A stretch of DNA of 25,924 nt from a virus: the IMG/VR virus record IMGVR_UViG_3300025646_000317, positions 1 to 25,924 of that record, one strand, 5' to 3'. Under the pieces are notes generated by a model that was not told the origin of the DNA, did no database searches, and saw only the letters and a list, made by a program, of their open reading frames with translations. Shown in pieces: positions 807-25,761 of this stretch (positions are counted from its first letter, which is position 1; each line of letters starts with the position of its first letter). The position numbers and the translations under genes were made by a program.

Positions 807-826
807 TAACACAGTGGGGTAACACG

Positions 827-928
827 GGTGGGCTTTGACCCACCTCGCATCCACAAATCTTTGTAACAACGGTGGGCTACGCTCACCGGCGAATAGATCG
901 ATAACTTAGTTATCAAGCTCACTATTCG
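827..928 (+). promoter_or_regulatory. Three consecutive hairpins in the leader of the capsid genes
   Basis: The 200-base gap between scaffold and decoration genes holds three hairpins in a row. 827-844: GGTGGG, loop of 6, CCCACC. 870-888: CGGTGGGC, TAC, GCTCACCG with one G-T pair. 890-928: outer arms CGAATAG/CTATTCG enclosing GATAAC-TTA-GTTATC. No T-run follows any of them, so they are not standard Rho-independent terminators. They may stabilise or process the capsid mRNA. No clear promoter is seen here. Confidence 0.45.
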
Positions 929-1007
929 TCAGGTTACACCCAAGTTCAGCATGGTACATGGAAGATACGTCTCTGTGTGTCACAAGACAATAACGAAATG
1001 CTAAATA

Positions 1008-1721: not shown

Positions 1722-1741
1722 GAATAGGAGAGTAACTAATT

Positions 1742-2731
1742 ATGATGAATCTTGATCAAGTTAGAGTAATTGACCCTATCCTGACTCAACTAGCTCAGGG
1801 ATATAAGAATACTGACGGTGTGGCGACTTTCTTCGCTCCCTCTGTGTCCATGAACGTCCGTGCTGGTCGTACTCTTACCTTCGGGAAGGAGGCCTTCGCA
1901 GCTCAAAACTTCCTGCGTGCACCCGGTACCAACATTCAGAAAATCTCGAATGAATTCGGTACCCGGAGCTTCTCGCTTCGTCAAGAAGCGATTAGCTGGC
2001 AGATCGCTGAAGAAGTTGCTGCGGAAGCCAAAAACGGTGCTGCTGCAATCGATCTTCGCGCCTATGCCGCCAAAGACGCTGCAAATCGTCTGATGCAGTC
2101 CTGGGAAATCCAGGTTGCTAGCAAAGTCCTGGATGTGACCCAGTACGAGGCCGGTAACGTGCTCGATCTCGCCACCTACAATTCTGGTGCCGATCAGTTC
2201 AATAGCCCGACCTCTGACGTGGAAGTCCTGATGGACGACCTCAAAGAGCAGGTGCGTAGCCAGATTGGTTGCTATCCGAACAAGCTCGTGCTTTCCCCCG
2301 ATGCGTTTAACGCCCTGAAGCGTAACAAGCGTATTCGTGACTTCATGCAGCGCGGTGTCCTGGTGAACGAGAAGACCCTCGCAGAGATCTTCGGTCTCGA
2401 CGAGATTCGCGTCGCCCGCCGCCTTAAGCTTGGTGAAGACAACGCAAGCCTAGAGAACATCTACAACAACGTGGCTCTTCTCTTCTATCACCCCAGCGGT
2501 GCTACTGACGGCTTCACCCCCGCTCTTGATGCAAACTACGGTACCCCGGCTTATGCGTATACCTATACGCTGGCTGGCTATCCGATTTCCACCCCCGAGC
2601 GTTTCAACATGGATCGTCGTGTTTTCGAAGGCGACATCTTGGTTGAGCGTAGCTTCGAGCTGGTGGGTATGGGCGAAACCGGTCGCTGCGGCGCTGGTGC
2701 TGTCCTGCTCAACCCTGTGGGTGCAGCCTGA
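1742..2731 (+). CDS. Major capsid protein (HK97 fold)
   Basis: 329 residues. Main shell protein of the head. The start at 1742 has an AGGAG ribosome site about a dozen bases upstream; a second ATG follows at once. Fold hints: an N-terminal arm, a helix-rich P-domain region with AEEVAAEAKNGAAAIDLRAYAA, a region with GCYPNKLVLSPDAFNAL (typical of capsid proteins of this class), then RIRDFMQRGVL, a late segment with a Tyr-rich loop, and a beta strand near the end that places the ERSFELV stretch. Length, order after scaffold and decoration genes, the strong ribosome site, high-expression codon use and a strong terminator right behind it all support the call. The exact capsid subfamily is not known to me. 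Confidence 0.85.
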   Translation: MMNLDQVRVIDPILTQLAQGYKNTDGVATFFAPSVSMNVRAGRTLTFGKEAFAAQNFLRAPGTNIQKISNEFGTRSFSLRQEAISWQIAEEVAAEAKNGAAAIDLRAYAAKDAANRLMQSWEIQVASKVLDVTQYEAGNVLDLATYNSGADQFNSPTSDVEVLMDDLKEQVRSQIGCYPNKLVLSPDAFNALKRNKRIRDFMQRGVLVNEKTLAEIFGLDEIRVARRLKLGEDNASLENIYNNVALLFYHPSGATDGFTPALDANYGTPAYAYTYTLAGYPISTPERFNMDRRVFEGDILVERSFELVGMGETGRCGAGAVLLNPVGAA

Positions 2732-2735
2732 TCTG

Positions 2736-2744
2736 TGCTATACT
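2736..2744 (+). promoter_or_regulatory. Putative extended -10 promoter (TGCTATACT)
   Basis: TGC followed by TATACT is a good extended -10 element. The ten bases GTGCTATACT also occur on the - strand near 7022 and 20740, in front of two genes. Here it sits just behind the capsid stop codon and 20 bases before a strong terminator, so a transcript begun about 2751 would be stopped after roughly 40 bases unless the terminator is read through. No -35 box is seen. Confidence 0.45.
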
Positions 2745-2763
2745 GATACAGGTATCATCTCCC

Positions 2764-2789
2764 AGCCCGCCCTTGTGGCGGGCTTTTTT
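2764..2789 (+). terminator. Rho-independent terminator after the major capsid gene
   Basis: Perfect stem AGCCCGCC / GGCGGGCT with a five-base loop, followed by T's (2784-2789). It ends transcripts of the capsid gene. Confidence 0.9.
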
Positions 2790-2794
2790 GTCTC

Positions 2795-2803
2795 GTTGAA
2801 AGC
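2795..2803 (+). repeat. GTTGAAAGC element, copy 1
   Basis: Exact copy in sense orientation, 22 bases before the GTG at 2826. The flanks match the copy at 11186 (other strand) over 17 bases, and the degenerate copy at 25799 in 16 of 18. Confidence 0.6.
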
Positions 2804-2825
2804 TAAGTAGACGAGATACGCGCCC

Positions 2826-3617
2826 GTGGCCCCATACACCCCGCCTCCCGACGCCTATGGCGTCGCTAACAACTGTACACCGGCTACGGTAGATTATTTC
2901 ATTGAGGTGTTCGGATTTAACGAGGCCCTGGAGCTATCGCGCCTCGAAGATCCGACCGCGAACACAATCAATTACCAGCGTATCAACGTCGCTCTCCATG
3001 ACGCTGCGGTCCTGATTAATAACTTCATCGAAACTGCGCCGCCCCAGGGCAAGCTGCTGATAGCGGGGTCGTATCGCAGAACTCAGGCCATACTCGCTCG
3101 CTGGTACCTGGACACTCTGAGACCCCGTCAACAGGTCGTAGACGCCGCAGAGGCCGCCCTCAAACAACTCGACCTATGGGCAGCCAAAGAATCACCCTCC
3201 AGCGGCCTGAAGTGGCAAGAAGCCTACCGGTACTGGGGCAGCGCATGTGCGATGACGATGTCCAGCACGCAGCGGGATAGGGCGTTTACCGATGCATCGC
3301 TCGCGCGATGGGAAATGCGGTGGGGTACTAATAATCGCTGGAATCCATTCAAACGCAAAGGAGCCCCGGTCATCAACAATGTTGCTCAGCGCGAGCCTAG
3401 TGGATCGTTGGATAGGCAGGACGTCACGTTGATTGGTGATAGCACGCTTGAGGTCAATCAGCTATTCGATAGCTTGGAAACCACCCGAGACGTCGCCAGC
3501 TTTGCTGACACCCAGAACGCGGCCACGCCGGTCGAAGGCGATGTACTTGTTGTTGAGAATACGGACGGAGACATCACAACCTACGATGGCGGCCTGCAGG
3601 AGGCCGATACCTTCTGA
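2826..3617 (+). CDS. Head completion / connector protein, gp36-like (DUF1320) with extra C-terminal tail
   Basis: 263 residues, start GTG at 2826 after the terminator. The first 120 residues have the all-helical plan of DUF1320 (Mu gp36-like) proteins: a short helix with TVDYFIEVFGFNEALELS, a long helix with INVALHDAAVLINNFI, then a region LIAGSYRRTQAILARWYLDT and a last helix with AAEAALKQLDLWA. These proteins join the portal to the tail. The rest (about 125-263) is extra. Its end, LETTRDVASFADTQNA ... VEGDVLVVENTDG, resembles the end of the next gene product. Next to it are the 119-residue protein and the gp37-like gene, as in Mu-like heads. The family is recognised by pattern only. Confidence 0.65.
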   Translation: MAPYTPPPDAYGVANNCTPATVDYFIEVFGFNEALELSRLEDPTANTINYQRINVALHDAAVLINNFIETAPPQGKLLIAGSYRRTQAILARWYLDTLRPRQQVVDAAEAALKQLDLWAAKESPSSGLKWQEAYRYWGSACAMTMSSTQRDRAFTDASLARWEMRWGTNNRWNPFKRKGAPVINNVAQREPSGSLDRQDVTLIGDSTLEVNQLFDSLETTRDVASFADTQNAATPVEGDVLVVENTDGDITTYDGGLQEADTF

Positions 3618-3663
3618 TGCTTTGATTTTCAGCTACTCAATTTTGTAACACTCCCCCAACACT

Positions 3664-4023
3664 ATGTGGACATCTGACGCCAATCAAACTTACGGATACG
3701 ATCCCCTGAACCCCGGTATGCCCGGAGGATCGAGCCTGCTGACTATCGTGCCGAATACGGCCAGCGCGGCTTGCGGATATAATACAAGCGGATTGCAAGG
3801 TCTCACGCACTCCAGTTTCGGCGTATTCCCGGATAGTACGCAGTACAAGCAGACGGCTAGCGAATTACGCCAATATATCGTCAACCTCGAAGCTACAAGG
3901 AAGTTGCGCGACCTGGCCGATGTTAACTTTCAGCGCTCCCCGGAACCCGGCGATGTCCTTGCGTACAACTATACTACCGGGCTGTGGGAACTACTTGATT
4001 TCGTGTCCGGCGGTGAGTTCTGA
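3664..4023 (+). CDS. Small putative structural protein
   Basis: 119 residues, ATG at 3664, no strong ribosome site. The N-terminal half is rich in Gly, Ser and Asn. The C-terminal part has a helix SELRQYIVNLEATRKLRDL and then DLADVNF ... PEPGDVLAYNYTTGLWEL. This 'L-x-D-V ... GDVLAY' pattern is common in phage fibre, neck and tail proteins as a short beta motif, and it also resembles the end of the preceding gene product. The gene lies between two head-tail joining genes, so a virion role is likely, but the exact function is unknown. Its last 33 bases overlap the end of the deaminase gene on the other strand. Confidence 0.6.
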   Translation: MWTSDANQTYGYDPLNPGMPGGSSLLTIVPNTASAACGYNTSGLQGLTHSSFGVFPDSTQYKQTASELRQYIVNLEATRKLRDLADVNFQRSPEPGDVLAYNYTTGLWELLDFVSGGEF

Positions 4024-4394
4024 CCACGCACCATTGTCGGTGGAATAGTAGACGCGTTCGATACCTGATTCGGCAATGGCCAGTTGGCACACGGGGCACG
4101 GACGCGCCATGCACAACTCACCACGGCGATTCACCCTTCCAATAACCAACGTGTCACACAAAGCAGCATCGGGCTTGAGCAACGCTCTTAGCTCCGCATG
4201 GAGAGATACTCTGTAGGGCTGACCGACCTGCTCTGCGAGGCGTGATTGGACAGGGTGCGTCTTGCCCCACACATTGGTGCTTCGAACTGCGATACGGTTT
4301 TGCGAAGCAAGACGCATCCGACTCGCCAGCGCGAATCGATAGAGAGTGCGAGGTCGGTTACGGCTTTAGTTACGTGTCTACTCACCATCGGCAT
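3991..4394 (-). pseudogene. dCMP/cytidine deaminase, split by a -1 frameshift
   Basis: Zinc-dependent deaminase that would make dUMP (or uridine compounds) for thymidylate supply. The first part is read from ATG 4394 and carries LALSIDSRWRVGCVLLRK. The second part lies in another frame and carries NRIAVRSTNVWGKTHP, the zinc motif HAELRALL and PCPVC. Joined at the AAAA run (TTTT on the + strand at 4298-4301), the two parts make one normal family sequence of about 134 residues; one more A would restore the frame. The start overlaps the stop of the upstream gene (TGATG). Causes may be a real mutation, ribosomal slippage at AAAA or a sequencing error. If only the second part is translated (ATG 4317, 108 residues), it keeps the zinc site but lacks the first strand and helix. 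Confidence 0.75.
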
Positions 4395-6694: not shown

Positions 6695-6991
6695 CTATTC
6701 TACATCATCACCGTCCTGGCGCTCCGCAATGCACTCAAACACACCACGGATCGCGTTGTCCAGGAGAGTGACGGCTTCACGTTCAGACATTTCCCCATCC
6801 GTACACAAAATGTTATAGATGAGGCGGGCGGGGTTGACGCGTTCGTCTTCGTTGTCGAGTCCGATAGCAGTAATAAAACCTTCGAAAAGGTCTATGTTCT
6901 CCCGTTGGCAAACTTCAATAATTTTAGTAAGGATTTCTCCTTCAATCAGGCAATCTTGAACCTCTGGAGTCTCGAGGGTAGTGACTGTCAT
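6695..6991 (-). CDS. Small acidic protein of unknown function
   Basis: 98 residues, ATG 6991. Acidic, all-helical by eye, with two blocks: IEGEILTKIIEVCQRENIDL and SEREAVTLLDNAIRGVFECI. No membrane segment or signal peptide. No family recognised. It follows the polymerase gene on the same strand but has its own promoter-like element (TGCTATACT at 7022-7030, about 30 bases before the ATG) and a hairpin behind it, so it may be a separate, strongly expressed unit. Confidence 0.65.
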   Translation of the reverse strand: MTVTTLETPEVQDCLIEGEILTKIIEVCQRENIDLFEGFITAIGLDNEDERVNPARLIYNILCTDGEMSEREAVTLLDNAIRGVFECIAERQDGDDVE

Positions 6992-7021
6992 TGGGAGCAG
7001 ACGGTTTCAGTGTACGTTTTC

Positions 7022-7030
7022 AGTATAGCA
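7022..7030 (-). promoter_or_regulatory. Putative extended -10 promoter (TGCTATACT)
   Basis: On the - strand the ten bases GTGCTATACT are identical to those at 2735 (+) and 20740 (-). They would start a transcript near 7015, giving a leader of about 25 bases before ATG 6991. No -35 box is clear. Confidence 0.6.
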
Positions 7031-7052
7031 CGGATAAGCGTGTGCAATCGGT

Positions 7053-9812
7053 CTACCGGTCGGCCAGAGAATTTAATGTAGATACTAGGCTAGTTATAGT
7101 ATGAGCGCGGCCATCAGGCTCAGCATTAGGCTGCGACACAGTCACCGTACTGGCCGTAGCCGCCTTTCTGAAGATTTTGTCAACCTCAATACTGCTAAAC
7201 CATGCATTTGCATGGGGCATCTCACAAATCTCGTACTTATACCGCAACCAAGCCCAAGACCACAAATGAGCCACCTGGTATAACGCGCTAACTAGATCAG
7301 CATCCTCTTCGCGACACATGTACAACACACTGTCGTGTACAGACATACAGAATCTGGCACGAACGTTAAATCGTCGCGTAAGGTGTTCCATGGCTGTAAG
7401 GAACGCATGAAGCATGGCGCTACCTGTAGACTGAATTACCCAGTTATTGCGCATAGTAAAGAATTCTTTGCCTACGGATTTAGGTCTAAAGGCTGTAGAC
7501 ATTCGTGTGCCGCTTAGGGGGTTGCAGGGAACATCTAAGTTGGCGATTCGCGACATTTCATTGTAAGCATATGAATCGCTACCTCCTATTAAGTTCGGAG
7601 ATGTTTTGCTGGCTTTTTTACCCTTCTTGCGAATAATAAGTTTTTTACCCATAGCTTCGGCCTCTTTGAGGCTAATGGACTTATTGCCCTTTCTGATCGT
7701 TGCAGCTAGTGTTTTAACTCCAGATCCATACAACATCCCATAGTTGCACCCCTTGGCAATCGATCTAGAAATACCAATAGTTTTTGCTGTCATGCTATGC
7801 ATATCTGTACCGTCATCTTTGGATCCGGCTAGAACACTATGACCAAACTGAGTACTTCCCGCGATTTTATGGTACGAATCGGCAAAGATACTTGCTATCA
7901 CACTTTCTTGTCCATCATAGTCTGAGGATACAAAGGTCCAAGGGGATTTTAATTGAACACGAGTTTTTACTTCAGTGCCAATCTTATCGGGTTTGGGGTC
8001 GGGTACTGTTAGCCAAAGGTGCTCACCAGCACGATTTGTGGCAGTATTATGGGGAATGGTTTGAGGAATAATAATATCCATATCTGATTCGTCTATAGCC
8101 TTTGTAGGAAGCTGTTCTAGCACTCGACTGCGCACTGAAGTCCAATAACTTACCTTCACTGCAAGACGAATTAGTTCTTGAGCTTGAGGCAAGTCACTAG
8201 ATAGCATTCCTGATTCAAAGTCATCTAGAAAGTCTTTACTAAGCACACCACCTACATTTAATCCTTCCCCATTGGGGTGAGGTAATCTTTCATAAGTCGA
8301 TTTTTCCTCATCCCAATACGTCCAACCTTCATCCTTAGAGTACACCATTGGCTGACCGTTCCATTTAAGGCGTAATAGGATATGGCTAAGCCTGCTCTTA
8401 GTCGTAATAGGTTCTAGGACAATACGACCCAAGGTCTTATCGTTTTTGGCGTTTTTTCTATACCACATTGGCACCCCATACCAACAACTCTTAGGGGTTC
8501 CATCCTTTTTCAAAGAGAAATTAGCTTCCCAATCAAGCTGAGAAAACCACGGATCAGGATCTGGATCAATATCTCCGTTTTTCCAGTCATGCAACAACTC
8601 TTCAGCAATCTCGCTCAATAGCTCATCTTGTCTGGAGATTGACTCTTTCCACACTCTTTCACAATTTTCTACCCAGTCTTTCCAATCTGAAACAACTGGC
8701 AATACAGATCCAGTTTGAGAAAAGTGTCCGTATAACGTTGTAAGACTAGGGTTAGATTGAAGATATTTAAGTACAACAATTGAATAGAGGTCAAATGTCA
8801 ATTTGACATCTCTAAGTGCGTATTCAACCAGTCTATCTCTATCTGGCTCAAAATCCCACATAGATTCGGCTACAACAAATAGATTTCTAGTCTTCTTAGT
8901 TTCTTTTTTCACAGGAACCATTGGCTTGCAATGGAAGTTATATGCATCGACTAGATTATTAAGCGAACCCTTGTCTACCCAGGAGGGTTTTCCTACTCCT
9001 TTAAAGGTTTTGTCGTCTGGATTAGTGAACCAAAATCGTTGATCAGAGGCTAAACCTGATACATTAATATGAGCGGACATTGTATCGAACCACAGGTTCC
9101 CAAAGGGGTCAGCTTTGTCAAATGGATCGTGTCTCAGGTAATATGCCTCACGAGTGCGTTGACGATCAAACCCTGCGTTGTGAGCAATCAGCAACGTATT
9201 CGTAGTACCTAGAGGAACAAGTTGGGGGATGTAGGGAACCGCAGGGTCAACAAAAGACTGATGCATCCAAACCCAGTACGAGTCAGGTGATACAACTGTT
9301 GCAAGGATGGGGTGGCCGAAGTTGGTACCTTTGACAAATGTTTCGCAGTCAAAGATAGCGATATCGACACCCTTTAATCCATCGGGTTCGTGAGTAACAG
9401 TCCAAGATCCATCCTGAGACCATTTGTACCTTGTCCAGCCTGTTTGGTAGACAAAATCTCCGATATTTGGGGGCTCTGGAACCTCAAGATCAGCAAACTC
9501 CTTGAGGAGTGTTACTTTGTCGCCAAGTATATCCTTACTGGTATTATCAAAGTGTTCGGCTATATTGTCGCCACTTAGAGGAGGCAGGTAGAAGTCAGGG
9601 AGTTTTGTAAAAATATCTGGGTTCTTAATGGGAAATTCTACTCCGAATTTCTCCATATCGTCTTTTATGCTATTTATGATTCCAGGATTTGGACCATTAA
9701 ATAGATTATCAAGGTGCTTAGCGTGGTAATTTGTTACTTCCTCGTCGCCAAAAGCGGCTCGTGCCATGTCCGGGCCAAGAACCGAGTAGCCAAGTGGGTT
9801 CAGATGGGTCAT
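7053..9812 (-). CDS. DNA polymerase, family A, mitochondrial POLG-like, with 3'-5' exonuclease
   Basis: 919 residues, ATG 9812. Replicative DNA polymerase of the phage. Exonuclease motifs: FDCET (D155, E157), HNAGFD (211-216) and YALRDV (Y331, D335), so proofreading is likely active. Polymerase motif A SSDYDGQES (D631, E636), motif B RSIAKGCNYGMLYGSG (R683, K687, Y691), motif C MSVHDSVLY (H826, D827). The closest family I recognise is animal POLG: the stretches DGTDMHSMTAKTIGIS, ARFCMSVHDSV and AWFSSIEVDKIFRK have direct POLG counterparts. Oddity: the Glu that follows the catalytic Asp in motif C is Ser828. Tyr691 at the ddNTP-selectivity position resembles POLG and T7. Codon use is visibly more AT-rich than in the virion and topoisomerase genes, which suggests separate ancestry. 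Confidence 0.93.
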   Translation of the reverse strand: MTHLNPLGYSVLGPDMARAAFGDEEVTNYHAKHLDNLFNGPNPGIINSIKDDMEKFGVEFPIKNPDIFTKLPDFYLPPLSGDNIAEHFDNTSKDILGDKVTLLKEFADLEVPEPPNIGDFVYQTGWTRYKWSQDGSWTVTHEPDGLKGVDIAIFDCETFVKGTNFGHPILATVVSPDSYWVWMHQSFVDPAVPYIPQLVPLGTTNTLLIAHNAGFDRQRTREAYYLRHDPFDKADPFGNLWFDTMSAHINVSGLASDQRFWFTNPDDKTFKGVGKPSWVDKGSLNNLVDAYNFHCKPMVPVKKETKKTRNLFVVAESMWDFEPDRDRLVEYALRDVKLTFDLYSIVVLKYLQSNPSLTTLYGHFSQTGSVLPVVSDWKDWVENCERVWKESISRQDELLSEIAEELLHDWKNGDIDPDPDPWFSQLDWEANFSLKKDGTPKSCWYGVPMWYRKNAKNDKTLGRIVLEPITTKSRLSHILLRLKWNGQPMVYSKDEGWTYWDEEKSTYERLPHPNGEGLNVGGVLSKDFLDDFESGMLSSDLPQAQELIRLAVKVSYWTSVRSRVLEQLPTKAIDESDMDIIIPQTIPHNTATNRAGEHLWLTVPDPKPDKIGTEVKTRVQLKSPWTFVSSDYDGQESVIASIFADSYHKIAGSTQFGHSVLAGSKDDGTDMHSMTAKTIGISRSIAKGCNYGMLYGSGVKTLAATIRKGNKSISLKEAEAMGKKLIIRKKGKKASKTSPNLIGGSDSYAYNEMSRIANLDVPCNPLSGTRMSTAFRPKSVGKEFFTMRNNWVIQSTGSAMLHAFLTAMEHLTRRFNVRARFCMSVHDSVLYMCREEDADLVSALYQVAHLWSWAWLRYKYEICEMPHANAWFSSIEVDKIFRKAATASTVTVSQPNAEPDGRAHTITSLVSTLNSLADR

Positions 9813-12277: not shown

Positions 12278-12616
12278 CTATCGTAGCACATCTTTCACGG
12301 AGTGGTGGGCCGCGTCAAAGTAGCTGATCAGGTTGTCCACAATCTGGATCGTGCTGACAGATCCGCACGTGAAGATGTCCACCGCAGCAGAGCGGTGCTC
12401 GGGCCACGTGTGGATGGAAAAGTGCGAGGTTGTGAGCAACGCGAGGTACGTGAACCCGGCCTCGCCCACAGGATCGAACTGATGATCCAGGGTGTTTACC
12501 ACCTCGGCCCCGGCATTAGCCAGCATGCCGTCTGCGAATACGCTAAACGTTGCCAGATCCCTCAGACCCTCCACATCCTCGCACTCGTACAGATTCAAAA
12601 GGACATGACGACCCAT
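12278..12616 (-). CDS. speD: S-adenosylmethionine decarboxylase proenzyme
   Basis: 112 residues from ATG 12616, with a GGGGCGG stretch just upstream; the frame opens earlier at a TTG (12640), less likely. SpeD makes decarboxylated SAM, the aminopropyl donor for spermidine, and is a known cyanophage gene. Motifs: MGRHVLLNLYECE at the start and SHFSIHTWPEH ... VDIFTCG. By position, Ser64 should become the pyruvoyl group, and His69 and Cys84 are the processing and proton-donor residues. The residue before Ser64 is Thr, where bacterial enzymes usually have Glu (ESH), so self-cleavage may differ. The gene begins 10 bases after the Dam-like gene. Polyamines would help package or replicate phage DNA. 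Confidence 0.9.
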   Translation of the reverse strand: MGRHVLLNLYECEDVEGLRDLATFSVFADGMLANAGAEVVNTLDHQFDPVGEAGFTYLALLTTSHFSIHTWPEHRSAAVDIFTCGSVSTIQIVDNLISYFDAAHHSVKDVLR

Positions 12617-12626
12617 GTCCGCCCCG

Positions 12627-13427
12627 TTATAAGTTCGCAACTAAGTAAACCTCCGTCAAATCAGTATCCTCACAAGCTTTCAACACCGGTACAAAGTGTT
12701 GCGGGTCGAAGTACTCTGAGTAGTTGTTGACCACACGTCCCCACCGGGTGTGTAACGCTGATACGCAGATCTTGTATCCTTCTGCGGCCAGCGAGTTCAG
12801 TTCTTTGGATATGAATTCGAGCTTTCTCCGGGTCCACGAGTACCCGCAACCGTAATGAGCGAAGTGATCGGGCAGGTGGAGATACAGCAGGCTATTGTCG
12901 TCTAGTTTTCCGATAGGGAAATTGTAGATGTTCGACCGATAAAACTCGATCTCCCTCCCCTTATTCGACTTGGCCCAGTACCTTATCCCTTCGTAATCCG
13001 GCTCAATAGGGGCGTGTTCACCAATCAATTGCCACTTCTTGTAGGTGTACGAGAATCCGCTCATGGCCATAAGACAATAAAGAGTGGCAACATCGTCCCA
13101 ATTATTCAAGATCTTCCCCCTCCGCAGGTTATTGTAGGCCGACAAGACCTTACACCTCCTGATCCAGTCCTGGCCTGAATCGAATTTTTTCTCCCAACAC
13201 TCCCGTATGTAGCGATGAGCAGGGGCCAACAGCAATAGTTTGTGCAACTCCAACCAGTATCGTTCGCTAGCGCATAGAACAAGATCCGGTGAACCACTAG
13301 CATACATGAAGTTAGCAGTACCTGTATCAATACCCACAATACGCATAGCGGATATATCCGGATACTGGTCGAAAAATTGCAAATGCGTGCGTGTAGAACG
13401 CCCGGGTGAGGGCAGTATGTGCGGCAT
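12627..13427 (-). CDS. Dam-like (D12 class) methyltransferase fold protein with degenerate motifs
   Basis: 266 residues; ATG 13427 overlaps the TAA of the upstream gene (TAATG). The plan follows D12 adenine methyltransferases: an early PSPGRSTRTHLQFF for the usual YPGxK, a glycine-rich MRIVGIDTGTANF for the FxGxG motif, LVLCASERYWLELHKLL for the 'NDxNxxL' helix, a middle ATLYCLMAMSGF for 'NRTxFNG', and a C-terminal helix with LEFISKELNSLAAEGYKICVS as in Dam. The catalytic DPPY is not recognisable; the place holds YLHLPDHFAHY. So it may be inactive, use a changed site or be an unrelated protein; the resemblance is by eye. It lies between a 133-codon gene and speD. Confidence 0.5.
   Translation of the reverse strand: MPHILPSPGRSTRTHLQFFDQYPDISAMRIVGIDTGTANFMYASGSPDLVLCASERYWLELHKLLLLAPAHRYIRECWEKKFDSGQDWIRRCKVLSAYNNLRRGKILNNWDDVATLYCLMAMSGFSYTYKKWQLIGEHAPIEPDYEGIRYWAKSNKGREIEFYRSNIYNFPIGKLDDNSLLYLHLPDHFAHYGCGYSWTRRKLEFISKELNSLAAEGYKICVSALHTRWGRVVNNYSEYFDPQHFVPVLKACEDTDLTEVYLVANL
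12676..12684 (-). repeat. GTTGAAAGC element, copy 6 (within coding sequence)
   Basis: Exact copy in sense orientation, inside the 3' end of the Dam-like gene and 59 bases before ATG 12616 of speD. Confidence 0.45.
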
Positions 13428-13828
13428 TACACTCTTACCTTACGCCAACTTTTACCATCATAATAGGATACGAGTTCCTTAGAGAAGATACGAATCGTGC
13501 CGGGATGAGGCCCATAATATGTACGCTTCTTACCAGCGTTATTGTCAAAAATCTCGTTAAGTTTGTATTCCATGCCCGAAACACTGCTAAGTAGTTGCTT
13601 TTCCACCCACTCATATATCCTGATGATGTCGCTACCTGTGAATTTGGCAAAATAAAGAGCCGAGAGCCTAGGAACACTAATCCCACTCATCTCCACGTAT
13701 TCATTGCTGGCAGGGTGGAGCTTGTAACCCAAAAATGCCTTGGATCTAGGGTTTTCCATGTTCGCGAAGCGATGCAGGTCTCCGGGGCCAAGGGTGAAAT
13801 ACGTATCCGAGTCAGTCACAATCACCAT
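13427..13828 (-). CDS. Protein of unknown function
   Basis: 133 residues from ATG 13828; an in-frame TTG at 13876 is also open. ATG 13828 lies just inside the end of the bilin reductase gene (overlap of 17 bases). It begins MVIVTDSDTYFTLGPGDLHR, then SKAFLGYKLHPASNEYVEM, an alpha/beta-looking middle, and ends DGKSWRKVRV. No family recognised. The stop is coupled to the Dam-like gene (TAATG). Confidence 0.6.
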   Translation of the reverse strand: MVIVTDSDTYFTLGPGDLHRFANMENPRSKAFLGYKLHPASNEYVEMSGISVPRLSALYFAKFTGSDIIRIYEWVEKQLLSSVSGMEYKLNEIFDNNAGKKRTYYGPHPGTIRIFSKELVSYYDGKSWRKVRV

Positions 13829-14441
13829 GTGGGAACAGGTACGTTCGGATGTAGTCATTTGCGAACTCGGCTCCAAAGTACGACTTCAATATACCATGGG
13901 CGGGGTCGTGATCGGCCATATACCGGTCGAATCCGGTAAAATCGGGCCTGTTACCGGTGTTTGCCGGCAGTCTCGCCACATAACGGCGCAATCTTTCGTA
14001 ACATACCGTTACGAAATCCTCGTAAAAAGGGTTATCACTCCTCTTGTGCCATAATTTGGTCGAAAAATACGTATCCAGGTCGTAATGGCGTGAACTTTGG
14101 ACTTCTCGAGGAGAAAAATCGGGGAAAAACGCCTCAATAGGGCGATTATCACCATTTGGTGGGTGAAAATCCGTCGCCCCTAAGTAGCGATTGGCCATTT
14201 CGATGTACTCGGAACCGAAAATCGGGAAATCCCGTCCCTCAGACGGATACACCAGCAGCGTTTCGGCAAAAAACTTGCCCGGAACCGTCAAAATACAGCC
14301 CCGGGCATACGATATACCGAGATCCGGGTACCGGATCGCGATGGATTCGATCCGAACGGGGCCGGATTCATCGATCCGGGGCTCCCACTCCCCCTGAATC
14401 ACTTCAACGGCCCACTTTTCTGACCACAACGGTGTTGTCAT
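13812..14441 (-). CDS. Ferredoxin-dependent bilin reductase (PcyA/PebA/PebS family)
   Basis: 209 residues, ATG 14441. The family reduces biliverdin with electrons from ferredoxin to make phycobilins for phycobilisomes. Seen: DFPIFGSEYI (as PxFGxD), GATDFHPPN with the conserved catalytic Asp91, then TYFSTKLWHKRSDNPFYEDF, and the family-typical end FDRYMADHDPAHGILKSYFG ... FANDYIRTYLF. Length is near the usual 230-250. I cannot tell PcyA, PebA, PebB or PebS apart from these motifs, so the pigment made is unknown. The start overlaps the end of the AbrB-like gene by 38 bases. Cyanophages carry such genes; here it is in one - strand run with the Dam-like and speD genes. Confidence 0.82.
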   Translation of the reverse strand: MTTPLWSEKWAVEVIQGEWEPRIDESGPVRIESIAIRYPDLGISYARGCILTVPGKFFAETLLVYPSEGRDFPIFGSEYIEMANRYLGATDFHPPNGDNRPIEAFFPDFSPREVQSSRHYDLDTYFSTKLWHKRSDNPFYEDFVTVCYERLRRYVARLPANTGNRPDFTGFDRYMADHDPAHGILKSYFGAEFANDYIRTYLFPHGDCD

Positions 14442-14787
14442 CTCTAAGTTCCCACTGCAATGTGTCGCCTACTCTCCATTTTAACACATTACACACCACT
14501 TTCGGGAGTGTTATCGTGCCGTTTTCACTGATTTCAGTAATAAAATGCGTCTGTTGGTACTTGCCAGACTTGTAATCGTGGGAGATTTTAGCCTCCATGT
14601 CATCCGCGATCATATTTTCATTGATCTGGATGTACTCGAGCATGCCGTTGACAGTGTTTGCGACGGAGTCGACTACCTTTGCGGGTACTTTGGGGTCGTC
14701 AGCGATAGCCGAAATCGCCTTGACCAACTCCTTTAACGTAGTGCTGTAGTTGAGGAAACGTTGTTCCAGGTCTTCCCAAGGGTGCAT
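14404..14787 (-). CDS. AbrB/SpoVT-like domain protein
   Basis: 127 residues, ATG 14787. The first 75 residues are helical (LNYSTTLKELVKAISAIADD). The C-terminal part, about 84-125, looks like the small swapped-hairpin AbrB DNA-binding domain: EISENGTITLPKVVCNVLKW, GDTLQWELRDDN and VVVRKV. AbrB domains pair in dimers and bind DNA, so it may be a regulator of phage or host genes. A promoter-like TGCTAGAAT lies at 14815-14823. The gene comes before the bilin reductase and may head that operon. Confidence 0.65.
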   Translation of the reverse strand: MHPWEDLEQRFLNYSTTLKELVKAISAIADDPKVPAKVVDSVANTVNGMLEYIQINENMIADDMEAKISHDYKSGKYQQTHFITEISENGTITLPKVVCNVLKWRVGDTLQWELRDDNTVVVRKVGR

Positions 14788-19707: not shown

Positions 19708-20715
19708 CTACTTCCCAGCTACTTCGGCGCGATATTCGTCAAGCAGCTTGATAAAGTGTTCGTCGTATTTGCCTGCCTTGATATCCTTGAGCTTATCGAG
19801 CGGGTGCTCAGGCTTCTCAGTGTACTCGAAGAACGTTGGTAACGACTTCGCATCACACAAGCCCCGGAACGGCTTAAGTTCGATCTTGTCGACACCGCCG
19901 GCACTATCGAGGCGCCGGATCAAGTGTTTCTTGATATCGTTGTAATTGAAGTCGTCTAGGCTGTCGCCCCACGCCCGTTTAATGAGTTCGATGGCGTGGT
20001 CGGTATTCGTCAGTGTGGGTACAACTGGCTCAGATTCAACAGGATTAGCACCTCTACCCAGTTTCTCGATACATCGTTTATGGCGAGTCTTAAGGTATTT
20101 GGACATTGGCCCGATACCATATTTCGATTCGATCTTTTCACATAGGCCGACCATAAACGCTTCGCCCCCCTCTGTCTTAAGGATTTCTTCATATTTCCTG
20201 TCCAAGTACAGAGCAGGGTCAGCGGCCAATCCACGACTGATACCTGCTTCCCAAGCCTCTAGCTTCTTTACGATTGTCGACTGGCGCTCAGGCTGCTTAT
20301 CCGCCTTATTCCAGCGCATCCCTTGGCTCTTAGCCTTCTCGATGCGTTCGACAAATTCCTCTCCTAGCTCGGGAGTCTGAGTTGTTGCCGTGGACGGTTT
20401 ACCCCAGATCGATGCGAGCCCAGCCCCAATGTTTCCAATGGCGTTTGGGCCGTATTTGTGCTGTGCGAAATTCTCGCTGAGGGCGAACAGCTTCTCCGTA
20501 AGCTCCTTGCGGACCTGTGTGTCATTTAGTTGATAGTTGAGCTGCAAAATCCGTTCCTGCTGCTCGGCCTCCCTCATCTTGATGTAGTGGTCGGCACTGG
20601 TCCTCTTGAGTTCGAGAATGGCCTCTATCAGGGTCTCCTTGGGGAAGGAGCGGAGGACGGTGATACCCAGGTTGGGCTCCTCCACGATGGTCCGGATGTC
20701 TGAAAGCTTTGGCAT
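19708..20715 (-). CDS. Protein of unknown function with N-terminal coiled coil
   Basis: 335 residues, ATG 20715. Residues 25-85 form a helix or coiled coil (EAILELKRTSADHYIKM, QQERILQLNYQLND). Residue 90-105 is a Gly-rich GNIGAGLASIWG, and the C-terminal half is charged and helical with repeated Lys/Glu. No motif recognised. It has a very good promoter candidate (TGCTATACT at 20740) about 25 bases before the ATG and a hairpin behind it, so it is probably a single-gene unit. It could be an early protein because of its strong, isolated promoter; that is inference. Confidence 0.65.
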   Translation of the reverse strand: MPKLSDIRTIVEEPNLGITVLRSFPKETLIEAILELKRTSADHYIKMREAEQQERILQLNYQLNDTQVRKELTEKLFALSENFAQHKYGPNAIGNIGAGLASIWGKPSTATTQTPELGEEFVERIEKAKSQGMRWNKADKQPERQSTIVKKLEAWEAGISRGLAADPALYLDRKYEEILKTEGGEAFMVGLCEKIESKYGIGPMSKYLKTRHKRCIEKLGRGANPVESEPVVPTLTNTDHAIELIKRAWGDSLDDFNYNDIKKHLIRRLDSAGGVDKIELKPFRGLCDAKSLPTFFEYTEKPEHPLDKLKDIKAGKYDEHFIKLLDEYRAEVAGK

Positions 20716-21549: not shown

Positions 21550-21762
21550 ATGGATCTCACCGATATTCACGCCCTAGCCTACGCCTTCATCGGTATCATG
21601 ATCGCCGAGGTTGTAGTCAAACCTATTGCGGTACGCCTAGGACGCTATCTTATAAAAAGGCTGGACGACCGAATCCTGATCATTCCGAACTGGCTAAGTC
21701 GCCAAGGTCGCTTCAAGGATCGGTGCGACTGCCCAGAAGATGAGTGGAAAGATACTCTGTAA
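21550..21762 (+). CDS. Small membrane protein
   Basis: 70 residues, ATG 21550. Membrane helix about 8-25 (ALAYAFIGIMIAEVVVKP), then LGRYLIKRLDDRILIIP and a charged end. It may be anchored in the host membrane. No family recognised. Its 3' end overlaps the first paralog gene on the - strand by 50 bases. Confidence 0.55.
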   Translation: MDLTDIHALAYAFIGIMIAEVVVKPIAVRLGRYLIKRLDDRILIIPNWLSRQGRFKDRCDCPEDEWKDTL

Positions 21763-22003
21763 GGGTCTTAGCGAGACTTTCTCCCATAGAGTAACAAAAC
21801 TCTTTACTTAGGCTTATTGTTTTCTTTTTAAAGGAGGTGTCAAAAAGTTCGTTAATAGCTTCTGACACGCCGCTCTCTGTATCCAGCCCACTATACACAC
21901 TAAAAGTGTAAAACATACTTTCAGCATCTCTACCTTTTACTATATTAATCCCGTTCTCTTCGCACCAGGGTCGGACTATAGAGTCAAAGAAACCCATCTT
22001 CAT
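21713..22003 (-). CDS. Array paralog 1 (WCEEN subtype)
   Basis: 96 residues from ATG 22003, with an AAGGG stretch a few bases upstream. Last gene of the small-paralog array in transcription order. N-terminal helix FDSIVRPWCEENGINI, then a variable middle and a C-terminal helix SLAKTLTEYLSTHLL. The first helix matches paralogs 2 and 3 (LQDWCESNSIEW, LEAWCKENRIVW). No known family. Confidence 0.6.
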   Translation of the reverse strand: MKMGFFDSIVRPWCEENGINIVKGRDAESMFYTFSVYSGLDTESGVSEAINELFDTSFKKKTISLSKEFCYSMGESLAKTLTEYLSTHLLGSRTDP

Positions 22004-22039
22004 CTGCCCTTATGCGAAAAAGAATAAGGTCGGTTCAAG

Positions 22040-22315
22040 TTACTCATTTAATCTAAGGCGACGTGTTATCACATCGGTTAGACAAGTGATGTCCTCCAGA
22101 CAAGTGATGTTCCTTTTAAGGCTCATGACGGACTTTATCACGTAATCCGAGACCTCGCACTGAGGGAACCTGGTTTCCCCAAAGCACTCCTGTAGGGCTG
22201 CTTCTACCGGGTCCAGGGGCTTCATGGTGAATACGTGCATTCCGATCATAGAGTCGTACTTCCACTCGATGCTGTTGCTTTCGCACCAGTCCTGGAGACA
22301 GTGTTCAAATTCCAT
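22040..22315 (-). CDS. Array paralog 2 (WCESN subtype)
   Basis: 91 residues from ATG 22315, which has a good ribosome site (AAGGGGG). The start overlaps the end of paralog 3 by 11 bases. It shares FEHCLQDWCESNSIEW and QECFGETRFP with paralog 3 (FEEALEAWCKENRIVW, EKCFGEGSP). Function unknown. Confidence 0.65.
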   Translation of the reverse strand: MEFEHCLQDWCESNSIEWKYDSMIGMHVFTMKPLDPVEAALQECFGETRFPQCEVSDYVIKSVMSLKRNITCLEDITCLTDVITRRLRLNE

Positions 22316-22631
22316 ATACCCCCTTATAAATCCAATTTGAAAGGTAATATTTGGACAGCTCAAATTCATTAAGAATTTTACGAGATACATACTCAACAAA
22401 CTCTTCTTTACTATCCACTGTGTCTCTAATAGAATTTAAGTACCACTCACTGAAACCTACGTAAGGACTTCCTTCTCCAAAACATTTCTCGATCTCAAAC
22501 TCTGTAGATCCTGGTTCTCCTTTAGAGAATAAGTGATCGAGTCTTTCCTCCCTCTTTGTCCACACAATCCTGTTTTCCTTGCACCATGCCTCCAGAGCCT
22601 CTTCGAATTCTAATTCAAGCTTTTTACTCAT
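22305..22631 (-). CDS. Array paralog 3 (WCKEN subtype)
   Basis: 108 residues from ATG 22631, whose ATGA overlaps the stop of paralog 4. Contains FEEALEAWCKENRIVWTKRE, EIEKCFGEGSPYVGFSEWYL and a last helix FVEYVSRKILNEF. The codon use is AT-rich. Function unknown. Confidence 0.65.
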   Translation of the reverse strand: MSKKLELEFEEALEAWCKENRIVWTKREERLDHLFSKGEPGSTEFEIEKCFGEGSPYVGFSEWYLNSIRDTVDSKEEFVEYVSRKILNEFELSKYYLSNWIYKGVYGI

Positions 22632-22876
22632 AAGAACGGCCACATGGTAGCGTGCAGTCTAACATGCTCGCGAATCTCGGCAACCGACATCGTTTTGAGT
22701 TTGGGCCAACTTAGACGGATTATTTCGCGTCCCTCGATATCCATGCCCACATACCCCCCGGCCGAGAAACATGAAATCAGGTCATTAGCCACACACTCCT
22801 TGTTGAAAGCATCGATACGTTTCCGATTCGAATCCCTCATATACATGTGCGGCAGTGGGTGAGTGTCAGAATCCAT
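22628..22876 (-). CDS. Array paralog 4 (divergent)
   Basis: 82 residues from ATG 22876, overlapping the end of paralog 5 by 11 bases. The first helix RIDAFNKECVANDLISCFS takes the place of the L-C-K-Y-G helix but lacks the consensus; the end is SVAEIREHVRLHATMW. Included because of position, size and coupling. Function unknown. Confidence 0.5.
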   Translation of the reverse strand: MDSDTHPLPHMYMRDSNRKRIDAFNKECVANDLISCFSAGGYVGMDIEGREIIRLSWPKLKTMSVAEIREHVRLHATMWPFL

Positions 22877-23084
22877 GGACCAGGAGTGCCTCAATGATCT
22901 GGTTCTCAATACTAGCACGGGTCCATGAACCTGGATCGCAGTAGCAAAACACTATTAGTGGGGATTGCCCGTCGAAAAGATCTATCAATGTACGGTATAC
23001 ACGAAACTCGCTCCCTATAATGAACGGAGTCAACCCGTACTTGTTGCATAACTCTTTAACTACCTTTTTATAGTTTTCGTTCAC
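22866..23084 (-). CDS. Array paralog 5
   Basis: 72 residues from GTG 23084 (GTGA overlaps the TGA of paralog 6). Typical of the array: VVKELCNKYGLTPFIIGSE, a short beta middle with LIVFCYCDPG, and the last helix SWTRASIENQIIEALLV. Function unknown. Confidence 0.65.
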   Translation of the reverse strand: MNENYKKVVKELCNKYGLTPFIIGSEFRVYRTLIDLFDGQSPLIVFCYCDPGSWTRASIENQIIEALLVHGF

Positions 23085-23305
23085 GATGCCATCCCATGCA
23101 ACGCATACCCTACTACAATACCTTCCAGTTCGCTGTAGGTCATCATACCCAACAATTCCACCTCTAGATACCCGTACACACTGACATACGGATACTCTTG
23201 CCCCCAGCTATAGAATTTGTACGAACGACATTCCGGGTCATAGGAGACCTCGACTCCATACCGATCGCACACTTCCCGTAGTTCTTTCCACTCCATGGAA
23301 CTCAT
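23081..23305 (-). CDS. Array paralog 6
   Basis: 74 residues from ATG 23305, which follows directly on the TAA of paralog 7. WKELREVCDRYGVEVSYD, a Tyr-rich middle, last helix TYSELEGIVVGYAL. Function unknown. Confidence 0.65.
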   Translation of the reverse strand: MSSMEWKELREVCDRYGVEVSYDPECRSYKFYSWGQEYPYVSVYGYLEVELLGMMTYSELEGIVVGYALHGMAS

Positions 23306-23605
23306 TTACTTGCAAAAAGATCGATTCATAGCTTTCTCTGCTATAAGGGCCTCTAGTGCTGGCCAGTTAGGGTGGATAAGGAGGTTGATGTCTACACTAA
23401 ATACATTAGCAAATGAAACCTCCGCATCAAGATCTGGATGACTAATCACCTTTATAGGGTAATCATATTCTCCCTTTAAAGACCTGTCGAAGTCCAAGTA
23501 ATCCTGAGGGTAAGAGAATAGAGCATCATGAAAAGCATGGAATCCGTACTTTTTGCAGAGGGACATAAATTTTTCAAAATTTTCAGGCATCTCATTAGTC
23601 ATCAT
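23306..23605 (-). CDS. Array paralog 7
   Basis: 99 residues from ATG 23605 (a second ATG follows at 23602), overlapping the end of paralog 8 by 11 bases. ENFEKFMSLCKKYGFHAF, then middle strands and NWPALEALIAEKAMNRSF. Together with paralog 8 it matches the pair 9/10 in order and partly in sequence. Confidence 0.65.
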   Translation of the reverse strand: MMTNEMPENFEKFMSLCKKYGFHAFHDALFSYPQDYLDFDRSLKGEYDYPIKVISHPDLDAEVSFANVFSVDINLLIHPNWPALEALIAEKAMNRSFCK

Positions 23606-23870
23606 TAAAACAGTCCATAATGGAGCAGGTAGTGGCAAACTCTGCTACCATGGTCTCCAGATCTTCCCAGGGTTTTGTCAGATCGAAAGCGTAAATTACA
23701 AGCTTGAACTTTAGCAGCTCCTCCATACTCATCATTGAATGATCCCTTAGCTTATGATAGATTAAAGTTACAGCGACGGGGCCGGTGTCGTATCCCCCCC
23801 AGCCATAAAAAGGTGTGCAGTTGTTCTCCTTGCACAATTGGTCGATTTTTTGGCGGGTGATCCAGTCCAT
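23595..23870 (-). CDS. Array paralog 8
   Basis: 91 residues from ATG 23870 (TGATG overlap with paralog 9). RQKIDQLCKENNCTPFYG, VTLIYHKL, LVIYAFDLTKPWEDLETMV and CSIMDCF. Nearly the same as paralog 10 for most of its length; the two genes are copies 525 bases apart. Confidence 0.7.
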   Translation of the reverse strand: MDWITRQKIDQLCKENNCTPFYGWGGYDTGPVAVTLIYHKLRDHSMMSMEELLKFKLVIYAFDLTKPWEDLETMVAEFATTCSIMDCFNDD

Positions 23871-23905
23871 CAGAAGCTGTGTAACATGGTGTATTCTACC
23901 AGAGT
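23806..23905 (-). repeat. Direct repeat, copy A (100 bp, offset 525)
   Basis: Nearly identical to 24331-24430, with only a few mismatches. Covers the start of paralog 8 and the end of paralog 9; weaker similarity continues left through the paralog 8 / paralog 10 genes. Confidence 0.9.
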
Positions 23906-24136
23906 TTTTTCGATACTGTCCCAGTCCGGTTTAATAAGGCTAGAATATCCTATGTAAATGACCTCGGATCCCTTTCGGAATCCGTATATCGCCACCTTCT
24001 TTGGCACAGATAGATGTATAGAATAGAGGCCGTATTTTACGACAAGCCTATTTAACCGGATGATGGTTTCTTCAGTCATTCGAAAATCTCCTCTATCACA
24101 CACCCAATCAAAATTTTCAGGTATCGTATTAGCCAT
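23870..24136 (-). CDS. Array paralog 9
   Basis: 88 residues from ATG 24136, overlapping the end of paralog 10 by 8 bases. N-terminal part ANTIPENFDWVCDRGDF resembles the start of paralog 7; then NRLVVKYGLYSIHLSVPKK and the end PDWDSIEKTLVEYTML. Function unknown. Confidence 0.65.
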   Translation of the reverse strand: MANTIPENFDWVCDRGDFRMTEETIIRLNRLVVKYGLYSIHLSVPKKVAIYGFRKGSEVIYIGYSSLIKPDWDSIEKTLVEYTMLHSF

Positions 24137-24395
24137 CCTCAAAACAGTCCCTAATGGAGCAGGCGGTGGCAAACTCTGTTATCATGGCCTCCAGATCTTT
24201 CCAGGGTTTTATCAGATCGAAAGCATAGATCTCAAGCTCGAACTCTAGCATATTTTCGTTACTCATCGCCATATAATTCATTGGACGCTTATAGATCAAA
24301 GTTACAGGAGGACTGTATCCCCCCTTGCTATAAAAAGGTATGCAGTTGTTCTCCTTGCACAATTGGTCGATTTTTTGGCGGGTGATCCAGTCCAT
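24129..24395 (-). CDS. Array paralog 10
   Basis: 88 residues from ATG 24395. Sister of paralog 8: RQKIDQLCKENNCIPFYS, YAFDLIKPWKDLEAMI, ATACSIRDCF. The start codon overlaps the TGA of a 12-codon gene remnant (24395-24430). Confidence 0.7.
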   Translation of the reverse strand: MDWITRQKIDQLCKENNCIPFYSKGGYSPPVTLIYKRPMNYMAMSNENMLEFELEIYAFDLIKPWKDLEAMITEFATACSIRDCFEDG

Positions 24396-24430
24396 CAGAA
24401 GCCGTGCAACAAGGTGTATTCTACCAGAGT
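24331..24430 (-). repeat. Direct repeat, copy B (100 bp, offset 525)
   Basis: See copy A. The right edge (24430) coincides with the last base of the paralog 11 stop codon, which marks the duplication breakpoint. Confidence 0.9.
24395..24430 (-). pseudogene. 12-codon remnant of a paralog 9-like gene
   Basis: In frame it reads TLVEYTLLHGF and stop, matching the end of paralog 9 (TLVEYTMLHSF). The rest of the gene is missing: paralog 11 ends at this very point. Left over from the 525-bp duplication. Confidence 0.75.
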
Positions 24431-24681
24431 CATTCAAACATATCCTCCATGACACACCCAATCAAAAGCGATTCGATTTCGTCCATCCTACCTTCTCTCA
24501 CCAAAACCGTATTCACCTTTACGCGGTTTCCGTACATAAATGGTCTTTTAACATCCCAACGAGCAACGGTGATCAGGGAACTAATAATAGCGCCTTCGTG
24601 TACTATGCAGTCTGTCGCCACGCAACCGTACCTCTTGCAGAGCTTAAAAAACGCCTCGAGGTTATCAGATGACTGGTACAT
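24430..24681 (-). CDS. Array paralog 11
   Basis: 83 residues from ATG 24681 (TAATG overlap with paralog 12). NLEAFFKLCKRYGCVATD, middle strands with VNTVLVREG and the last helix MDEIESLLIGCVMEDMF. Function unknown. Confidence 0.65.
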   Translation of the reverse strand: MYQSSDNLEAFFKLCKRYGCVATDCIVHEGAIISSLITVARWDVKRPFMYGNRVKVNTVLVREGRMDEIESLLIGCVMEDMFE

Positions 24682-24932
24682 TAGGTGAAAAGGTAGGGAA
24701 GAGAAAAATCAATGATAGCGGATTCAATGCTTTCCCAGTCAGGGAGATCTATAGACTCTATCGGAATGGTTAGAGGAAAATCAGTTCTCAAGTAAAATGG
24801 TCTATTTATACACTCAATGACTATTTTTAAAGGCTTTTCGTTTCTATATTCCAAATACTCAGGATAACAATTGTACTTAAAGCACAAACTATAAAGTGTT
24901 TTAATGTTTTCTGACTGGTAGAAGTTAATCAT
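24681..24932 (-). CDS. Array paralog 12
   Basis: 83 residues from ATG 24932. NIKTLYSLCFKYNCYPEYL, NRPFYLRTDFPLTIPI and LPDWESIESAIIDFSL. AT-rich codon use. The ATGA start overlaps the TGA of the decayed paralog 13. Confidence 0.65.
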   Translation of the reverse strand: MINFYQSENIKTLYSLCFKYNCYPEYLEYRNEKPLKIVIECINRPFYLRTDFPLTIPIESIDLPDWESIESAIIDFSLPYLFT

Positions 24933-25094
24933 TGGGTGAAAGAGTTCAGGACAGCATAGTTAACAACAACCTCTTCAAGCTTCTCCCAGTTCGGTTCTTT
25001 TAGCGACTCAAGTCTCATGTAGAAAGGGGGAGAGCTTCTGCAAGCAGATCTCTTGAAAGACCTCGTGATTTCTCTCTATCCCTGGATCAATCAT
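24929..25094 (-). pseudogene. Array paralog 13, decayed
   Basis: From ATG 25094 the frame gives an N-terminal start with NHEVFQEICLQK and stops after 28 codons. In another frame the end is complete: SPPFYMRLESLKEPNWEKLE, EVVVNYAVLNSF and stop, clearly like paralogs 12 and 14. So the middle is deleted and the frame is shifted. Confidence 0.75.
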
Positions 25095-25095
25095 T

Positions 25096-25341
25096 TCAGT
25101 TACCAGTAAAAATGTTGCTTATAGCTTTTTCGGCAACAAGGGCCTCAAGCTTCTCCCAGTCGGGGTCCCTTAGCGACTTCGCCTTTACAGAGAATAAGGC
25201 TCTGGGGCGGTTCCCCCAGATAGTCGGCTTCTCTCTAACGACAAGCACTCCGACCATTTTCCCCCGTTTATCGAAACGATAAGTGCAGTATAACCCGTAG
25301 AGCGAGCAGATCTCCTCGAACCGTTGGCAGTTGCTGGTCAT
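25096..25341 (-). CDS. Array paralog 14
   Basis: 81 residues from ATG 25341 (ATGA overlap with paralog 15). CQRFEEICSLYGLYCTYRF, KMVGVLVVREKP and SLRDPDWEKLEALVAEKAIS. Good example of the family: helix, strands, then the W-E-K-L-E helix. Function unknown. Confidence 0.7.
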   Translation of the reverse strand: MTSNCQRFEEICSLYGLYCTYRFDKRGKMVGVLVVREKPTIWGNRPRALFSVKAKSLRDPDWEKLEALVAEKAISNIFTGN

Positions 25342-25523
25342 TGGAAAACCTCCAGGGACACAGCAATAACTTTTTGCTCAATGTCTGACCAGTTGTCGTC
25401 CAGTCGGATAATATAACCCCCCGGCTTGTCTATGTGTATGTGATATAACCCCGGGAGCAATGTTTCACCTAAAAAGACACCGTGGCGTTTACAGAGTGCA
25501 ACTAATTCCGGATAACCACTCAT
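25338..25523 (-). CDS. Array paralog 15 (first complete gene of the array)
   Basis: 61 residues from ATG 25523. YPELVALCKRHGVFLGETL, strands HIHIDKPGGYIIRL and NWSDIEQKVIAVSLEVF. A -10-like TATAGT (25547-25552) lies 24 bases before the ATG and may start the array transcript. Function unknown. Confidence 0.65.
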   Translation of the reverse strand: MSGYPELVALCKRHGVFLGETLLPGLYHIHIDKPGGYIIRLDDNWSDIEQKVIAVSLEVFQ

Positions 25524-25546
25524 AACGGAAGGGTCGACGCCCCACC

Positions 25547-25554
25547 ACTATACA
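25547..25554 (-). promoter_or_regulatory. Putative promoter of the paralog array
   Basis: TG-TATAGT on the - strand; start expected near 25540. No clear -35 box. It is the only good candidate upstream of the array. Confidence 0.4.
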
Positions 25555-25564
25555 CGAATCCGTC

Positions 25565-25581
25565 ACGGGCCGCAGGCCCGT
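25565..25581. terminator. Hairpin upstream of the array
   Basis: Perfect stem ACGGGCC-GCA-GGCCCGT, between the gene fragment 25589-25696 and the array promoter. Short T-run only on the + strand. Confidence 0.5.
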
Positions 25582-25588
25582 TTCGCCG

Positions 25589-25696
25589 TCAGGCGCCTAG
25601 GAAGCAAAACTTAAAATGTTTTTCACAAAAAGTTGCAATTCTATCTGCAACACCACCCTCGAAAACCCCCATCAGGACTGGAAAGTTGAAAGCCAT
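25589..25696 (-). pseudogene. Truncated array paralog (N-terminal fragment)
   Basis: 35 codons from ATG 25696. The end ADRIATFCEKHFKFCFLGA looks like the first helix of paralog 15 (PELVALCKRHGVFLGET), after which the frame stops; the C-terminal half is absent. It could also be a tiny gene of its own. Confidence 0.45.
25685..25693 (+). repeat. GTTGAAAGC element, copy 9
   Basis: Exact copy; the 13 bases GTTGAAAGCCATA are shared with the copy at 21399. The complement is the start of the fragment gene on the - strand (ATGGCTTTCAAC). Confidence 0.5.
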
Positions 25697-25737
25697 ATAG
25701 GGATAAGGGCAGAGCGCTCCATCCAGATCTACACATA

Positions 25738-25761
25738 AGGTGTGAAATTTTAGTCACACCT
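25738..25761. other. Inverted repeat, terminator- or operator-like
   Basis: AGGTGTGA, eight A/T-rich bases, TCACACCT. The stretch 25697-25790 holds nothing else I can name. Confidence 0.45.

Follow-up and report, generated by a model that had tools for sequence, protein, structure and literature searches.

Phages are full of small genes without known function. The window, a 25.9 kb virus record, carries a dense run of such genes on its minus strand, and the question it raises is whether these form one family and, if so, what their products do for the phage. At least ten of the genes are related, with a common predicted fold and orthologs in three viruses. Such a set offers what a lone orphan gene does not: variable and conserved faces can be separated and members compared side by side.

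Origin of the window

At 57% identity to the enzymes of cyanophage S-TIM5 and relatives, the DNA polymerase of the window marks the virus as an S-TIM5-related cyanophage. A cyanobacterium is very probably its host, because the window encodes an S-adenosylmethionine decarboxylase (SpeD), annotated in S-TIM5 too, and a ferredoxin-dependent bilin reductase, a phycobilin gene, here in an S-TIM5-like phage (Table 1). A protein with a MazE/AbrB-type C-terminal domain is also encoded. Nearer, uncultured kin are the IMG/VR contigs L005 (record G001, 38,940 bp) and L010 (record G003, 127,396 bp), the polymerases of which are 76-78% identical to that of the window. The psbA gene was looked for on L005 and L010 and found on neither. 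A 99% identical contig (L008/L030) stops just before the array.

Table 1. Positions of the array genes and of other features of the window
Feature	Position	Strand	Evidence or remark
DNA polymerase	7053-9812	-	
S-adenosylmethionine decarboxylase SpeD	12278-12640	-	PF02675, E 7.7e-26
Ferredoxin-dependent bilin reductase	13812-14441	-	PF05996, E 2.3e-11
Protein with MazE/AbrB-type C-terminal domain	14404-14787	-	PF04014, E 6e-6
Small ORF at array end	21550-21762	+	No family match
g01, last ORF of run, possible CFGE-subtype relative	21713-22003	-	WCEEN motif only
g02, CFGE subtype	22040-22315	-	Cross-phage relatives h05, k14
g03, CFGE subtype	22305-22631	-	Related to L005 h05 and L010 k14
g04, small ORF in run, unlinked to family	22628-22876	-	Left-out HMM 1.3 bits, within background
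g05, core, 72 aa, GTG start	22866-23084	-	Left-out HMM; ortholog of L005 h03, L010 k08
g06, core, 74 aa	23081-23305	-	Left-out HMM; groups with L005 h02, L010 k04/k06
g07, core, 99 aa	23306-23605	-	Left-out HMM 29.1 bits
g08, core, 91 aa, recent tandem duplicate of g10	23595-23870	-	Left-out HMM, DNA identity
g09, core, 88 aa	23870-24136	-	Left-out HMM 25.4 bits
g10, core, 88 aa, recent tandem duplicate of g08	24129-24395	-	Left-out HMM, DNA identity
g11, core, 83 aa	24430-24681	-	Left-out HMM 23.6 bits
g12, core, 83 aa	24681-24932	-	Left-out HMM 30.5 bits
g13, frameshifted core copy	24929-25094	-	C-terminal part matches family HMM
g14, core, 81 aa	25096-25341	-	Left-out HMM; AlphaFold2 model
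g15, core, 61 aa, first array gene	25338-25523	-	Left-out HMM 14.1 bits, above all background ORFs and shuffles
ORF fragment at array head	25589-25753	-	HAD-like VDLDG motif

Organisation of the array

On the minus strand, a head-to-tail run of 14 intact small ORFs (61-108 aa) and one frameshifted copy, g13, extends from position 25523 down to 21713. The N-terminal and C-terminal parts of g13 are in different frames, and 45 bp of it are 80% identical to g14. Genes overlap or abut at 11 of the 14 junctions and are separated by a single base at one more; true gaps occur only at g11-g10 (34 bases) and g02-g01 (36 bases). The array is apparently one operon, which fits these overlaps. Consensus promoters and terminators were no commoner than in shuffles.

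The first-pass annotation had described at least 14 head-to-tail paralogs between 21713 and 25696, with overlaps almost throughout. The run itself was recovered, with g13 in addition, but g01 and g04 could not be linked to the core of the family by leave-one-out HMM. The span holds for 21713-25523; positions 25524-25696 fall outside the array, where the ORF looks like a fragment with a HAD-type motif. Overlap is the rule at most junctions, the two gaps excepted.

The HAD-like fragment has no good start codon and is perhaps a remnant. At the other end of the array, a small ORF on the opposite strand has look-alikes where the arrays of L005 (8816-8995, minus strand) and L010 (4170-4358, minus strand) end.

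Family membership

An HMM of the other core members, with the nearest copy also left out, was used to score each ORF, and 2632 background ORFs and 3900 shuffled proteins served as controls. Scores for g05-g12, g14 and g15 were 13-33 bits, above every background ORF and shuffle. The weakest, g10 (E 0.023) and g15 (E 0.013), still ranked first, g10 being moreover an obvious duplicate of g08. These ten intact ORFs are assigned by profile to one family, with the frameshifted g13 as its eleventh copy. Scores of g01-g04 with the core HMM stayed within background, giving no link to the core.

It had been proposed that most members share two conserved helix motifs around a variable middle, a reading that would fall if profiles connected no members beyond the pairs 8/10, 7/9 and 2/3. 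When this was checked, the reading held for ten members, which pass the leave-one-out HMM. Mean relative entropy reaches 1.54 for ELCKRY, 0.99 for GLRVIY and 1.08 for DWEELE, compared to 0.3-0.7 in the middle. The two helix motifs, LCxxYG and WxxIE, are the conserved parts of the family. Three lines support the family reading itself: the leave-one-out HMMs, the orthologs in L005 and L010, and a fold predicted with confidence, in which the ends are conserved and the middle varies. A subtype of paralogs 1-3 had also been proposed. It stands for g02 and g03, grouped apart with h05 of L005 and k14 of L010 through a CFG motif; g01 is at most a weak candidate for it. Comparison of this CFGE set with the core by hhalign gave a probability of 4%, with no sequence-profile link. 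The pair g02/g03 is taken as a sister subtype, with a predicted fold similar to that of the core.

When 28 core members were scanned against Pfam-A, PHROGs v4, NCBIfam 20 and PADLOC 2.0, no match rose above the family cut-off, and the best E-values (0.008-0.05) each came from one member alone. Missing from the libraries searched, the protein family appears to be previously unrecorded.

Predicted fold

The AlphaFold2 model of g14, built on a 28-member alignment, has an alpha-beta-beta-beta-alpha order (pLDDT 85, pTM 0.71), a confident prediction for proteins of 60-100 residues. The g03 model is of moderate confidence (pLDDT 73, five sequences) and reads alpha-beta-beta-(alpha)-beta-alpha-alpha, the same order of elements as in g14 with one extra helix.

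Solved structures gave chance-level matches only when searched by sequence. With Foldseek, nothing in the PDB fell below E 0.2, and many of the matches were GNAT enzymes at a TM of about 0.3. The best VIA rows in the PDB had a Z of about 4. Among them was 7u65 chain G, which is T7 Gp1.2, an inhibitor of E. coli dGTPase with this single known target (background, with GenBank annotations); the Gp1.2 query sequence was identical to T7 records. The alignment to this chain (Z 4.0, 68 residues, rmsd 3.9) is tied with unrelated chains and folds. Like the array proteins, T7 Gp1.2 is small (about 85 aa) and an accessory protein of a phage, and it shows a weak fold resemblance, but a single gene encodes it (a few records have two copies) and not an array. 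The best viral-model match was an 80-aa protein of Dickeya phage Dagda, of the T7 subfamily (Foldseek probability 0.99, E 0.009, TM 0.48), itself not identified as Gp1.2. Luksen, a relative of Dagda, carries a gene for 82 aa where T7 has gene 1.2. When the core was compared to six Gp1.2 homologs by hhalign, the probability was 0.2%, with 1 aligned column. Because the sequence profiles of Gp1.2 and the family do not align, Gp1.2 is treated as a lead and not as an assignment, and the nearest solved candidates, Gp1.2 included, are no more than weak ties. None of these searches yielded a firm relative.

Relatives and genomic slot

IMG/VR scans with family members returned only L005 and L010 besides the window; these collection scans were confirmed by tblastn from one sequence, and distant members elsewhere may be missed. 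The L005 array contains eight genes (6828-8848), seven of them in the core family, and the L010 array about sixteen (280-4205), with eleven in the core family. Ortholog groups in the tree are g05/h03/k08, g06/h02/k04/k06, h07/k16 and h08/k17, and g02-g03/h05/k14 is a recognisable ortholog set across the phages. Four further small ORFs (k09-k12) lie inside the L010 array at 2006-2973, unlinked to the core. A LELTFG-like motif at the C-terminus is common to three of these, k10-k12, which may form a small paralog set of their own.

Only chance matches were obtained by tblastn with three members in the phage collection, and no relative of either of two queries was found on GTDB genome contigs. A whole-record HMM search of S-TIM5, S-TIM54, S-TIM66, S-CBWM1, Mic1, A-HIS1 and Luksen gave nothing significant, and the cultured relatives S-TIM5, S-TIM54 and S-TIM66 are without the array. 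The multigene family is specific, so far, to one cyanophage lineage.

In the window, L005 and L010 the array sits at the same genomic place, an accessory slot bounded by thyX and by a conserved gene near gyrA. In the latter two phages it is upstream of gyrA, and in L010 also just upstream of a homolog of the window gene at 19708-20715. S-TIM5 and S-TIM54 contain thyX and the neighbouring genes, with the slot filled by unrelated small ORFs; that of S-TIM5 additionally holds a kinase, a helicase and an anti-restriction gene, the last labelled by PHROG annotation only. The variable accessory region of S-TIM5-like cyanophages (Aurunvirus) is the same slot and also has small ORFs, but those of S-TIM5 are unrelated to the array family.

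Evolution of the array

The arrays of the window, L005 and L010 intermingle in the tree, which has moderate support and several long branches; much of the duplication therefore predates the split of the phages. Lineage-specific pairs are g08/g10 and k02/k03. Purifying selection is seen on L005/L010 orthologs, with dN/dS of 0.11 for h07/k16 and 0.37 for h08/k17, and synonymous sites are saturated in the remaining ortholog pairs. The array orthologs of these two phages are 35-73% identical, compared to 88% for their DNA polymerases. Array orthologs are constrained yet diverging fast, and gene number varies between phages from 8 to about 16.

The recent pair g08/g10 is 82% identical in DNA over 332 bp, and tandem DNA repeats are present. 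Its differences are unevenly spread. The N-terminal end is near-identical (1 change in the first 21 codons), the last 30 codons have about 11 differences, and the middle has about 36 changes in 37 aligned codons, synonymous sites included (ends versus middle, Fisher p 0.007 for synonymous differences and 6e-7 for all sites). Across the pair dN/dS is 0.96, with nothing above 1. Positive selection is unsupported, the middle being equally diverged at synonymous sites. For this reason a mosaic origin, in which the middle was exchanged or the ends were converted, fits better than simple positive selection. The uneven divergence could also reflect homogenised ends and relaxed constraint, and not a change of specificity. 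The set is old and is still turning over, as seen in its recent tandem pairs, its frameshifted member and copies whose conserved ends enclose a diverged middle.

Possible functions

A stable two-helix frame, a variable sheet, many copies in what appears to be one operon, constrained rapid divergence, a slot whose content varies among phages and the lack of an enzyme signature together fit small binding proteins directed against host factors. The favoured reading, held at about even confidence, is that the array encodes accessory host-takeover or counter-defence binding proteins. Each protein would be a small binding module in which the helices hold the fold and the central strands and loops contact the partner. 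The members would each be aimed at a different host protein, or at a different variant of one, and the set would act as an accessory kit for takeover or counter-defence. Fast, mosaic evolution and an accessory location agree with the earlier suggestion that the members bind different partners, such as host defence or regulatory proteins, on one shared frame. No enzyme-family match was found among the 28 core members in the libraries scanned, and no member matches a known inhibitor or anti-defence family by sequence. The slot of the array is the one in which cultured S-TIM5 carries its annotated anti-restriction gene. If the members do bind host proteins, they offer a ready-made panel for cyanobacterial defence and takeover targets, which are poorly known.

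The array could instead serve phage self-regulation, a rather unlikely reading in which the paralogs bind one another or the replication and transcription machinery of the phage (e.g. the Pol gamma-like polymerase or gyrase), copy number giving dosage and not partner range. In each of the three phages the array does lie no more than 4-19 kb from gyrA and the DNA polymerase, its orthologs and the replication genes are conserved in the same phages, and a polymerase gamma accessory subunit is among the VIA rows, though at Z 2.9-3.5, within noise. Against this, array members diverge far faster than the polymerase, their number differs between phages, and S-TIM5, S-TIM54 and S-TIM66 have the same polymerase type without an array. 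A largely neutral array, a tandem-duplication hotspot in which a small ORF is copied, decays and is kept by chance, would account for the frameshift in g13, the dN/dS of g08/g10 and the tandem repeats. It is improbable because of the purifying selection on L005/L010 orthologs; moreover, 14 of the 15 reading frames are intact, and overlaps pack them tightly. Least probable, and very doubtful, is that the genes are multiplied homologs of T7 Gp1.2 acting as nucleotide-pool takeover proteins. A dGTPase target would not account for 10-16 different paralogs, and the structural match is tied with unrelated folds, the profiles do not align and the Dagda protein is not itself identified as Gp1.2; these points stand against the shared size, the 7u65 row, the Dagda match and the position of the Luksen gene.

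A further reading, rather unlikely, sees the array as a repertoire that diversifies itself. Tandem paralogs would recombine, keeping both helices while swapping or diverging the central strands, and new binding specificities against changing host targets would arise. The array would then act like a cassette system for phage inhibitors.

The array proteins are of mixed charge, with pI from 4.2 to 9.4. A uniform DNA-mimic mechanism is unlikely because of this mixture, and DNA mimicry was rejected as the common mechanism.

Tandem small genes are also known from the poly-immunity loci of polymorphic toxin systems, which contain small immunity genes in series. The likeness is an analogy only, as no toxin was recognised in the window and there is no family match. 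Another analogue is given by the AcrID1-type anti-CRISPR paralog sets of archaeal viruses, in which several small uncharacterised inhibitor paralogs occur per viral genome (PMC11065993). Their regulatory context differs and the analogy is organisational only, but the layout idea is the same as in the array.
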